This document shows, one piece after another, positions 1 through 4,045 of a stretch of 64,000 nucleotides of DNA; within the stretch, counting starts at the first letter, position 1; the number at the start of each line of letters is the position of its first letter. The notes under the pieces are model-generated. The model saw only the letters and a program-made list of their open reading frames with translations. It did no database searches and was not told where the DNA came from. Origin of the DNA: Buchnera aphidicola (Chaitophorus populicola) (GTDB lineage: Bacteria; Pseudomonadota; Gammaproteobacteria; Enterobacterales; Enterobacteriaceae); assembly GCF_964058995.1 (NCBI RefSeq), contig NZ_OZ060382.1:62001-126000 (forward strand), read 5' to 3'. A program made the translations under genes and the position numbers.

Positions 1-1071
1 ATTATTTTTTCTACTTTAGATGCATCTAATGAATCTTTTGTATCATTTCTTATAAGAATTAATACATTTAAAAATTTTATTTCAGAAGATTTATCAGATG
101 CAATTATTTCTGTAATTTCTTCGAGTATTCCAAATTTATCTAAAAAAAATATTGCTATTATTAGTCAATTTGGAAAAAAATTTAATTCAAATAAAAATTT
201 TTTATATACTCAAACAAATTATCAAGATATTAATCTTAATCGTTTTATTATAAATAAATATAAAAATCAAGTTAAAAAAAATTTATTATCAAAAGTTATA
301 AAACAAATTAATTATTTTAGATTAATTTATATAAATGATTTTAATAAATTATATAAAAGGAAATTTGCTTATTTTCAAGATTTGAATTTTTTTAAAAAAA
401 TATATATATTAAAAAATAACTTTTTTTTAATTAATACAATTACAGAGAGTAAAAAAAATTATGGTCTTATTATTTTTAGTAATTCTTGTAAGAAATATGG
501 TGATGTAGAAAAAAGATTTGATTATATAAATTTGTTTCAAAAAAAAAAATTTAATTTTAAATTAAATAAAAAAAAATTATTTAGTTCAATTATTTTAAGA
601 AAAAGTAATCTTGAAAATTCTAATAATAAATTTAATCACTTAAAATTAAATTCTTTATTAGATATTGGAGAGATTACAAATTTATCTATCATTAAATTGA
701 TAAATTACAAAAAATTTCATAAAGATAAATATCTTCCTATCATAGATCATAGAATTTTTAACATCAAAAATTTAATGAGAGAAGTTGCGGGATTTTCTGT
801 ATTTCGAAATGATTCTATTGAAATGTTAAACTGTAATTTTTCAGAACCAGAAACACCTATTATTCAATATATACCGATTAAAAAAAATGAATCTTTTGAT
901 AGAACATTACATTTAGTTCCGTGGTTTATATTATTTTTTTTTATAGTTTTATTAATCACTTCTTTTTATTCTTTTAAGAAATTAACAAAAAAAATTGAAG
1001 ATAGTAATATAAGTATTATATATAATATAAAAAATTCTTTTGAAAATTCAAAAAAATATAAATATTTCTAA
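1..1071 (+). CDS. fliF: FliF, flagellar MS-ring protein (3' part only)
   Basis: The reading frame is open from the first base of the window, so the start lies upstream; 356 codons are visible. FliF builds the inner-membrane MS ring of the flagellar basal body. The visible part matches the periplasmic ring-building region (a stretch like SVISSSIPNLSKKNIAIIS near residues 37-55 of the fragment, and REVAGFSVFRNDSIEMLN near 260-277) followed by the second transmembrane helix (about 309-325). Only some 30 residues follow that helix, whereas in E. coli a long cytoplasmic tail ends in the FliG-binding segment; that segment is absent here. No fliG follows. I infer a basal body without a rotor. Identity is confident; whether the truncated protein works is unknown. 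Confidence 0.88.
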   Translation: MIFSTLDASNESFVSFLIRINTFKNFISEDLSDAIISVISSSIPNLSKKNIAIISQFGKKFNSNKNFLYTQTNYQDINLNRFIINKYKNQVKKNLLSKVIKQINYFRLIYINDFNKLYKRKFAYFQDLNFFKKIYILKNNFFLINTITESKKNYGLIIFSNSCKKYGDVEKRFDYINLFQKKKFNFKLNKKKLFSSIILRKSNLENSNNKFNHLKLNSLLDIGEITNLSIIKLINYKKFHKDKYLPIIDHRIFNIKNLMREVAGFSVFRNDSIEMLNCNFSEPETPIIQYIPIKKNESFDRTLHLVPWFILFFFIVLLITSFYSFKKLTKKIEDSNISIIYNIKNSFENSKKYKYF

Positions 1072-1620
1072 CGATAAAAAAGAAAAAAATAATAAATAAT
1101 ATTTTTAAATTCAAGATATAAACATATTATTTTAAATATAAAATTAAAAAATATAATTTAATTGTATTTGATATAATATTTTTAATATAATTATTAATGT
1201 AATAAAATTACTTTAAATTTTTAATATACAGATATAATATTTAAGATAAATAAAAAATATATTATTTAAATAAATAATTTTATTAAAAAATAATTTAATC
1301 TCATAATTTTTTAAAATAAATTTAAAGTATATATTTTCATAATTTAAATAAAATATTTATAGCATATGTCAATATAAAAATTTTTAAATTTTTATTAAGA
1401 AATTATTTAAATTTATTTAAAATTTAAAATATATAATATTATATGAATATAAATTAGTTTAAAAATAAAATTTTTAACAAAAATTTTGATAGATATTTAA
1501 AAATATTTTCTTACATAATATTTATAGTTTTTAAAAATATAAATTTAAGATAGTATATGTAATATATTACAAAATTTTAATTTAATAACAACATTATTAA
1601 TACATAAAACATTATAAAAT
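1072..1620. other. Gene-free stretch where fliG to fliN are missing
   Basis: About 550 bases of very A+T-rich sequence without a recognisable gene, RNA or strong hairpin. In enterobacteria fliG, fliH, fliI, fliJ, fliK, fliL, fliM and fliN stand between fliF and fliO, roughly 7 kb. I see no recognisable remnant of any of them, so most of the block has been deleted and the rest eroded. No clear ribosome-binding site precedes the following fliO start. Confidence 0.7.
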
Positions 1621-1941
1621 ATGAAAACATTATTGCAATCCATAAATTATTATTTTTCTTTAAACAGTATTAACAGTTGTGTATATTTATATTATTCTAT
1701 AATTATTCTTATGCTAATATTTATTATAAATAGATATATTTATTTTTCTGGCTATAGAAATAATCCTTATATAAAAATTAAATCTAGTATTTCTATTAGT
1801 CCAAATCAAAAAATTTTTATTGTGGATTTAAAAAAAGTTCGATTAGTAATAGGAGTAACTTCAGATAAAATGATTGTGTTACATCGTTATGATAATACAA
1901 AATTTAATTTAAATGAAGAAGTTATAAAAAAAAAAAATTAG
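1621..1941 (+). CDS. fliO: FliO, flagellar export-gate assembly factor
   Basis: A 106-residue protein with one membrane helix (about residues 22-40) and a small cytoplasmic domain resembling FliO (IKIKSSISISPNQKIFIVDL, then VRLVIGVTSDKMIVLHR, residues 51-90). FliO assists assembly of the FliP ring at the core of the flagellar type III export gate. It stands directly before fliP, as in E. coli. The ATG has no visible Shine-Dalgarno sequence, and the 3' end carries a run of 12 A bases (1926-1937) just before the TAG stop. E. coli FliO is about 121 residues, so the size fits. Assignment rests on domain pattern plus position, because FliO diverges fast; FliN is ruled out by the membrane helix. 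Confidence 0.78.
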   Translation: MKTLLQSINYYFSLNSINSCVYLYYSIIILMLIFIINRYIYFSGYRNNPYIKIKSSISISPNQKIFIVDLKKVRLVIGVTSDKMIVLHRYDNTKFNLNEEVIKKKN

Positions 1942-2008: not shown

Positions 2009-2758
2009 ATGACATATTTGTATTTTTTTATAATAATGTTTTTATTTTTTTCACCGAATGCATACGCATATAGTATTTTTTCTTTAGAAAATTTTTTATC
2101 TAATACTTATCATTCTGTGAATTCATCTTTATCTGCTCAAACAGTATTTTTTATTACTTTATTAATTCTTTGTCCATTTGTCGTATTAATGATGACTTGT
2201 TTTACAAGAATTATTATTATTTTAGGATTTGTAAAAAATGCTATAGGTTTATCGTATTATCTTTCTAATCAATTCTTGATTGGTTTATCTTTATTTTTAA
2301 CTTTTTTTGTTATGCAACCAGCGTTTAATAAAATTTATTTACACGCTTATATTCCATTTGTAGATAATAAAATTAATATTCAGACAGCTATAGATAGAGG
2401 TATAGATCCTTTAAAAGAATTTATGTGTCATGAAACAAAAAAATCAGATTTATTAGAATTTGCAAAATTAACGCATATAAAATTTAAGAAAGATGATAAT
2501 ATTACAAATAATGTACCAATTAGAATTCTTGTACCTGTTTTTATGATCAATGAATTAAAAACTGCATTTAAAATAGGATTAATAATTTTTATTCCTTTTT
2601 TAATTATTGATTTATTAGTGTCAAGTATTTTGATGTTTTTAGGAATTACCATGATTACTCCTGCTATCATTTCTACACCTTTAAAATTAATAATTTTTGT
2701 ATTATTTAATGGATGGATGATTTTAATTAGTTCTTTAGCAGGTAGTTTGTATTTTTAA
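2009..2758 (+). CDS. fliP: FliP, flagellar type III export gate protein
   Basis: A 249-residue polytopic membrane protein, close to E. coli FliP (245). It begins with a signal-peptide-like hydrophobic segment (residues 1-20, ending AYAYS), then helices around 43-65, 87-105, 186-210 and 215-245. Family landmarks include FTRIIIILGFVKNAIG (66-81), LFLTFFVMQPAFNKIY and ELKTAFKIGLIIFIPFLIID. FliP forms the pentameric core of the flagellar protein-export channel with FliQ and FliR. A GGA ribosome-binding site sits about 10 bases before the ATG. The partners FliQ and FliR, normally immediately downstream, are missing here, so the gate could only be complete if they are encoded elsewhere. Confidence 0.95.
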   Translation: MTYLYFFIIMFLFFSPNAYAYSIFSLENFLSNTYHSVNSSLSAQTVFFITLLILCPFVVLMMTCFTRIIIILGFVKNAIGLSYYLSNQFLIGLSLFLTFFVMQPAFNKIYLHAYIPFVDNKINIQTAIDRGIDPLKEFMCHETKKSDLLEFAKLTHIKFKKDDNITNNVPIRILVPVFMINELKTAFKIGLIIFIPFLIIDLLVSSILMFLGITMITPAIISTPLKLIIFVLFNGWMILISSLAGSLYF

Positions 2759-3877
2759 AAAATAAAAAATTTTTATAAATAAAATTATAAAGAGAGACTA
2801 AATGTATATATAATAGAATATAAATAAATAATTCAAAATCTTTTATCTTACTAAAATTTTATTAATAATTAAAATATTCTATATTATTAAATATATTATT
2901 AATAAAATTAATAACAAATATTTTTTTAAAAATAAACAAAAATTATAGTAATTTTTATTTATCTAACATTGTTAAAATAATTTTATATTTTTTGTAATTA
3001 TATATTTTAATATTGATGTTTTTAAATAATTTTTTTAGGATATATTTATATTTTTATAAAAATATTATTTACAATATATTTTTAAATTGATTTTTTTATA
3101 TTCAAGTTATGATATTTTAAATTTTATTTTAAATAATATAAATTTTTTATATTTTCAATAAAATTTTATTTATATTATATTTATTTGTATTATATATAAA
3201 GTATTATGACAATATTATATATATATTCTCGCAATATTTAATTTTTTATATGATAAATTTTTTTATAAATTTATTTTTATTTTTTTATAAACTATAAGAT
3301 AGTAATTATTTATTAAATAAATAACTATTATTGATTTAAAAAAAATTATTAATATTATATTTTTTATTATGAATTTATATAGAATTTTTAAATATTAAAC
3401 AATATTTAATGATTTAATTCGATTAGATATTAATAATAATTTTTTTTAATTTTTTATATATTTATTAATGCTATTATAGATATATGAGTTTAAGATATAG
3501 TTATGAAAATTTTTTATTATATTTTTTATTTAAATATATATATTTTTTTGAAAAATATTTTCTACTTATATGTTCATATAATTTAAATTTATATATGTAA
3601 TTTATTTTTTATAATATTTTTAAATTTGTGTCAATTAATTAAAAATTAATTTATATGATAAAATTTTTTATTTTGTAACGTATTTTTTATTATTTTTAAA
3701 ATGTACATATAAGTTTTTTTAAATAAGTATTTTATGTATTATTATAAAAATTTATATTAATGTTTATAATGTATATTTTTTAAAATTTAATATAAAATTT
3801 ATTTAAAATAGTATAAAAATATATAGTATTTTTATACTAATTTTATTTTTTTAAAAAATATGTAAAATTTGCATTTA
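2759..3877. other. 1.1-kb gene-free region, probable site of lost fliQ and fliR
   Basis: The longest gene-free stretch in the window. Its length (1119 bases) is close to fliQ (about 270) plus fliR (about 780), the genes expected after fliP. A purine-rich GAGAGA at 2791-2796 followed by ATG at 2802 could be an old fliQ start, but the frame stops after three codons. A short read-through near 2963 (S-N-I-V-K-I-I) falls roughly where FliQ has SFIPKII; in such A+T-rich DNA this is weak support. A terminator-like hairpin lies at 3809-3839. No intact gene is present. Confidence 0.5.
3809..3839. terminator. Perfect 12-bp hairpin between fli remnant and rpmG
   Basis: Arms TAGTATAAAAAT (3809-3820) and ATTTTTATACTA (3828-3839) pair perfectly around a 7-base loop. 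A T-rich stretch follows on the + strand. The hairpin lies about 40 bases beyond the rpmG stop on the minus strand and would also face + strand transcription from fliP, so it probably serves as a bidirectional terminator. Its stem is almost pure A+T, so its strength is uncertain. Confidence 0.6.
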
Positions 3878-4045
3878 TTATCTTAATTTAAATTCTGTAT
3901 ATACAGCTCTTTTACGTGCAATTGGATCATATTTTATTAGTTTTAATTTTTCTACAGTGTTTCTTTTGTTTTTTGTAGTTGTATAGAAATGTCCTGTTCT
4001 TAAAGAAGAAATTAATTTAATTTTAATTCGAGAGCTTTTAGCCAT
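3878..4045 (-). CDS. rpmG: Ribosomal protein L33
   Basis: A 55-codon frame whose product starts [14 protein letters not shown] and ends [17 protein letters not shown], unmistakably bacterial L33 of the large ribosomal subunit. It has the same length as E. coli L33 (55 residues) and keeps the conserved YDP-ARK core. It lacks the zinc-binding CxxC pairs, as does the E. coli protein. It follows rpmB with a 14-base gap and is almost certainly cotranscribed with it, the same rpmB-rpmG pair found in enterobacteria. The hairpin at 3809-3839 probably ends the transcript. Confidence 0.96.

Follow-up and report, generated by a model that had tools for sequence, protein, structure and literature searches.

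A FliF without its FliG-binding tail in the flagellar remnant of Chaitophorus-associated Buchnera

The locus and the end of FliF

The window analysed here is a stretch of 64,000 nucleotides (G000:C1:62001-126000) from the Buchnera aphidicola of Chaitophorus populicola, whose genome (G000) was searched as one contig of 474,096 bases. The local gene order is gltX, fliF, a spacer, fliO, fliP, a second spacer and rpmG (Table 1). FliF is encoded in one uninterrupted frame, G000:C1:61524-63071 (<1..1071 in the window); the segment on which a preliminary description had centred, 870-1620, holds just the last 67 fliF codons and the spacer before fliO.

Table 1. Flagellar genes, FliF segments and spacers in the window.
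Feature	Position	Strand	Description	Basis or remark
fliF, 3′ two thirds	1..1071	+	515 aa in the whole genome	ORF start outside the window, at G000:C1:61524
TM2 of FliF	913..969	+	LVPWFILFFFIVLLITSFY	hydropathy, sequence
Cytoplasmic stub of FliF	970..1068	+	33 residues, replacing the 65-84-residue tail of fliG-bearing relatives	alignment
Eroded spacer	1072..1620	.	6.9% G+C, at the place of relatives' fliG-fliN	no remnant above shuffled controls
fliO	1621..1941	+	106 aa	Pfam FliO E 1.3e-8; TIGR03500 E 1.1e-11, below its cut-off
fliP	2009..2758	+	249 aa	Pfam FliP PF00813 E 2.4e-64; TIGR01103 220.7 bits vs. cut-off 217.45
Eroded spacer	2759..3877	.	7.4% G+C, at the place of fliQ-fliR	borders rpmG (3878-4045, -)

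The ring-building YscJ/FliF domain is recognizable in the window FliF (PF01514, YscJ_FliF; E 4e-10, residues 63-220, above the cut-off). The C-terminal periplasmic domain matches weakly (PF08345, YscJ_FliF_C; E 0.0076, 17.1 bits vs. a cut-off of 23.8), and TIGR00206, the fliF equivalog, is the top NCBIfam match, yet at 41 bits vs. a cut-off of 130. We consider the gene orthologous to fliF because of its position, with gltX upstream and fliO and fliP downstream, and because it is 35-54% identical to members of the genus that match the models better.

The protein ends soon after its second membrane helix. In the alignment, 33 residues follow TM2, vs. 81 in enterobacterial FliF and 65-84 in the Buchnera-type proteins whose genomes carry fliG. 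The tails of the latter finish in a conserved IIRKWIN-type helix, and no helix matching I-I-R-K-W-I/M is present in the stub. The part that is absent includes the FliG-binding end, which in a relative of the same genus reads ...PEISAMIIRKWINKNND. It is this C-terminal end of FliF that co-folds with FliG_N (PMC6079021). The preliminary description had proposed that FliF stops here without its FliG-binding tail, and on this point it was right.

The tail and fliG could in principle be present and concealed by a frameshift or an assembly gap. The FliF-tail, FliG, FliQ and FliR proteins of relatives were compared with the window spacers, and they score no higher there than against shuffled spacers; a frameshifted fliF tail was thus looked for and not seen in the spacers. 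Apparent tblastn matches to remnants of fliG, fliR and other genes in the spacers were discarded, being outscored by shuffled spacers. The identical state is also found in separately assembled genomes, including the draft genome of the Buchnera of Chaitophorus viminalis (L048). We found no point in favor of such concealment and consider it extremely unlikely.

Tail and fliG across Buchnera-type genomes

When the C-termini of FliF are aligned across Buchnera lineages, as the preliminary description had suggested, the tie between tail and fliG recurs. The comparison covered 21 Buchnera-type loci, with 19 genomes having an intact fliF. The tail occurs at every locus where fliG adjoins (10/10; L049, L056-L060, and L062-L065), and absent wherever fliF is intact and no fliG is found at the locus (9/9; L001, L047, L048, L050-L054, and L066). 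At the two remaining loci (L055 and L061) fliF is broken or shortened. Loss of the FliF tail accompanies the loss of fliG.

The window's genus is represented by 11 genomes, including those of the Buchnera of C. viminalis (G005) and of Periphyllus aceris (G003). Two of its members, G001 and G006, retain both fliG and the tail, and the nine others are without fliG; G120, which belongs to a different genus, has neither. Here the absence of FliG_C is genome-wide for the window's genus (2/11 have it) and refers to the locus for G069 and G120. Since both features disappeared in G120 and in members of the window's genus, and G001 and G006 keep both, fliG and the tail appear to have been lost independently at least twice, if they were never regained. 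The figure of two rests on genus membership and on the assumption of no regain, not on the FliP tree, where the minimum is four changes of fliG and three of the tail, with few well-supported branches.

This repeated association points to the loss of a known partner, FliG, as the cause of the tail loss. As to the order of events, we infer that FliG was lost first; the last helix of FliF, freed of constraint, would then have been truncated. The loss of the tail by itself is uninformative on export, because the Buchnera of P. aceris, with no fliG and no tail, keeps fliE, fliP, fliQ, fliR, flhA, and flhB. This genome and three others (G002, G007, and G008) resemble that of the window in having no fliG-fliN, a tailless FliF, and both FliO and FliP, but they differ in retaining FliE, FliQ, FliR, FlhA, and FlhB, and an export gate could still exist in them.

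The loci also vary in other respects. In G009 (L055) fliF is interrupted by stops while fliP, fliQ, and fliR stay open, and in G069 (L061) it is shortened before TM2 to a 395-aa frame, fliP, fliQ, and fliR again being open. FliO was not found at the locus in L054 and L055 (G004 and G009) or in L060, where FliP, FliQ, and FliR are retained; G004 and G009 also keep FlhA, the reverse of the window's lineage, in which FliO is kept and FliQ, FliR, and FlhA are undetected. Single open frames join fliM and fliN in three Buchnera-type genomes (L049:6689-8002, L057:7074-8465, and L060:6807-8228), and fliO and fliP in several others (L059, L061-L063). In G001, flhB is split into two open frames of 243 and 84 aa (L085:8044-9098), with flhA and fliPQR open.

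Genes lost and kept in the Chaitophorus lineage

Flagellar gene sets are known to vary among Buchnera and to be lost in some lineages (PMC8109811, PMC3246468, PMC9116674, PMC11188193). The window's lineage consists of G000, G005, and one further genome, G010. The FliG_C, FliG_M, and FliMN_C profiles gave zero matches genome-wide in G000, and matches in control genomes. A chimera of FliE/G/H/MN/Q/R/FlhB from genus relatives (1,922 aa) likewise found nothing in G000, G005, or G010, its targets being detected in eight genomes of the genus. A FlgD+FlgH chimera had zero matches in the same three genomes, nor did it match in G006. FlhA is undetected in the three and present in the other eight of the genus, and in G000 and G010 nothing occupies the flhBA site, which lies between proS and argS. 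FlgI was undetected in a genome-wide search of G000. The rod family PF00460 was undetected in all 11 genomes of the genus, with a model of 31 positions that distant rod proteins could escape.

Within the sensitivity of these searches, the C ring and rotor (FliG, FliM, and FliN) are not encoded in G000. The export gate parts FliQ, FliR, FlhB, and FlhA are undetected in this genome, and so are the basal body parts: FliE, the P and L rings and, by the short model, the rod proteins. The absence of the fliG-fliN block from the locus, which the preliminary description had reported, therefore extends to the whole genome, as the profile and chimera searches returned zero matches; the description had overlooked the loss of fliE (upstream), of fliQ-fliR (place 2759-3877), and, genome-wide, of flhA. 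Within the same search sensitivity, no known route is left for exporting rod or hook subunits.

The only flagellar genes detected in the lineage are fliF, fliO, fliP and, elsewhere in the genome, one for a FlgK-like fragment. The FlgK-like protein of G000 (310 aa; G000:C1:283796-284728, or L087:18797-19729) lies beside rne and consists of the D1 domain only (PF22638, E 1.9e-18). Its relatives are in G010 (66% identity), G005 (62%) and, weakly, G001 (28%). The loci with this protein are L087:18797-19729, L091:18344-19273, L097, and L098, the diverged form being that of G001. The protein is without the N-terminal rod-type domain, and it occurs in three genomes where neither rod nor hook nor export gate was detected.

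Could the remnant be a basal body that has been retained for some role apart from rotation, as the preliminary description had it? FliF is present, and the Buchnera of the pea aphid bears basal bodies (PMC8109811). One half of the proposal stands: the partner and its binding site were lost together, and since this recurs across Buchnera lineages, rotation by a C ring is excluded. The basal body itself is not supported. With FliE, FliQ, FliR, FlhA, FlhB, FlgD, FlgH, and FlgI undetected, the remnant cannot correspond to any basal body or export gate known so far, and no rod family was found across the genus with the short model. Nor can the hook-basal-body structures of the pea-aphid symbiont, which the description had invoked, be transferred to the window's lineage, because that symbiont retains the basal body and export genes and FliG (PMC8109811). 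The two are alike in gene family, ancestral gene order, loss of motility, and retention of FliF; they differ in that the pea-aphid symbiont retains FliE, FlhA, FlhB, FliP, FliQ, FliR, and rod and ring genes, with FliG, FliH, and FliI present in its enriched complexes (PMC8109811), whereas in the window's Buchnera only FliF without the FliG tail, FliO, FliP, and the FlgK fragment are detected. A retained basal body is therefore very improbable.

The missing gate and C-ring parts might instead come from outside the chromosome, whether from a plasmid missing from the assembly, from the nucleus of the aphid or from a co-symbiont, as the search covered just the single 474-kb contig. G010 and G005, however, agree with G000. 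The plasmids known to us from Buchnera bear leu and trp genes and none for the flagellum, and the gene transfers to aphids that we know of involve non-flagellar kinds; both speak against such a supply, which we hold to be highly unlikely.

The four genes that remain are under purifying selection, within the sensitivity of the searches. Omega was obtained by our own pairwise codon maximum likelihood, with saturated pairs (dS above 5) excluded. (IQ-TREE codon runs were dropped, as omega remained at exactly 1.000 for several sets and was apparently not optimised.) Among G000, G010, and G005, omega is 0.18-0.24 for fliF (2dlnL vs. omega=1, 38-51), 0.18-0.23 for fliP (27-39), and 0.05-0.29 for fliO (7-36); for flgK-D1 it is 0.20 in the G000-G010 pair (2dlnL 37). 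Omega=1 can be rejected for each of the four, in a genome that is very AT-rich and has synonymous sites near saturation. Other genes of the G000-G010 pair have omega of 0.01-0.16. Selection on fliP is relaxed about twofold relative to G007-G008, a gate-bearing pair of comparable dS (omega 0.23 vs. 0.10), and FliF has diverged faster than any other gene measured in the G000-G010 pair (54% identity vs. 65-95% for the others). Omega covers the whole time since the split of G000, G005, and G010, and placing the loss of the gate before that split rests on parsimony. The probability that a frame of 515 codons stays open at spacer composition is about 2e-30.

What the remnant may be doing

Two features of FliP bear on whether it could still form a ring. 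The residues F137, F150, and E178 (Salmonella numbering; positions mapped from what we take to be the Salmonella sequence) are retained in G000 and G005, and G010 has L at 150. In Salmonella these residues are required for ring formation, and FliP makes hexamer rings, aided by FliO, before FliQ and FliR join (PMC5542437). The methionine gasket, which seals the pore (PMC8239009), is MMM in G005 and the other aligned loci, ITM in G000, and MMI in G010. From the conservation of the ring residues, our best guess is a putative FliP-FliO ring in Chaitophorus Buchnera.

We therefore prefer, with some reserve, the following view. Besides FliG and the FliF tail, the Chaitophorus-type lineage has lost, within search sensitivity, the other export gate components and the axial parts, leaving fliF, fliO and fliP, together with a headless FlgK-D1 gene, all under purifying selection. 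FliO may still assist FliP ring formation in the inner membrane, where the ring might lie inside or next to a FliF ring. Such an assembly would secrete no protein and would have a membrane role of its own, for example that of a small pore or of a structural patch. That the tail was lost through the loss of FliG, and the gate and axial parts were lost around a constrained remnant, we regard as very probable when these two steps are taken alone. Together with a non-secreting FliP-FliO(-FliF) assembly, we put the probability at roughly 0.45.

Nearly as likely is slow decay: fliF, fliO, fliP, and flgK-D1 would be functionless leftovers, to be lost in their turn, and their low omega would reflect constraint predating the loss of the gate, or a residual avoidance of cost, in membrane proteins that have to stay non-toxic. 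The relaxed constraint on FliP relative to gate-bearing relatives and the gasket residues altered in two of the three genomes (G000 and G010) are what decay would predict, and they count against a non-secreting assembly. The speed of FliF evolution, the fliF genes already disrupted (G009) or cut short (G069), and a Buchnera of Stegophylla without any flagellar genes (PMC8109811) point the same way. Against decay, all three genomes have these four genes as open frames despite FliF divergence of up to 55%, whereas fliE, fliQ, fliR, fliG-N, and flhBA have eroded beyond recognition in G000. Nor does decay sit easily with the improbability of so long an open frame by chance, or with the rejection of omega=1 for all four genes.

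Known systems offer partial likenesses to the non-secreting assembly that we favor. It counts against this assembly that no function is known to us for a FliP lacking both FliQ and FliR. The FliP-FliO gate intermediate (PMC5542437) is alike in having FliP and FliO without FliQ and FliR, and the ring-forming residues are mostly retained; but in Salmonella it leads to the FliPQR-FlhB-FlhA gate, and in the window's lineage nothing was found for it to become. The FliF-FlhA-FliI set of Chlamydia (PMC2830194) is also a small flagellar set that includes FliF, in an obligate intracellular organism without flagella. In Chlamydia, however, FlhA and the ATPase FliI are retained, and a separate type III system is available as their partner, whereas what the window's Buchnera retains is the pore protein, and FlhA was not found. 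A minimal flagellar derivative of ring and pore protein, freed from the C ring, axial structure, and the rest of the gate and selected for a non-secretory role in the Buchnera of Chaitophorus, seems possible, though we would call it doubtful.

We found no mention of the FliF tail truncation in the literature consulted, which was mostly open-access; the fliF-fliO-fliP-flgK gene content may already stand in published Buchnera gene tables. Protein export is one published idea for the role of Buchnera flagellar remnants (PMC8109811). A lineage without a detectable gate but with constrained FliF, FliO, and FliP would separate export from other roles and provides a natural test. The recurrent loss of the FliF tail and fliG is a clear-cut example of how a binding site vanishes along with its partner, and the role of the retained flagellar genes in three related symbionts becomes a testable question.
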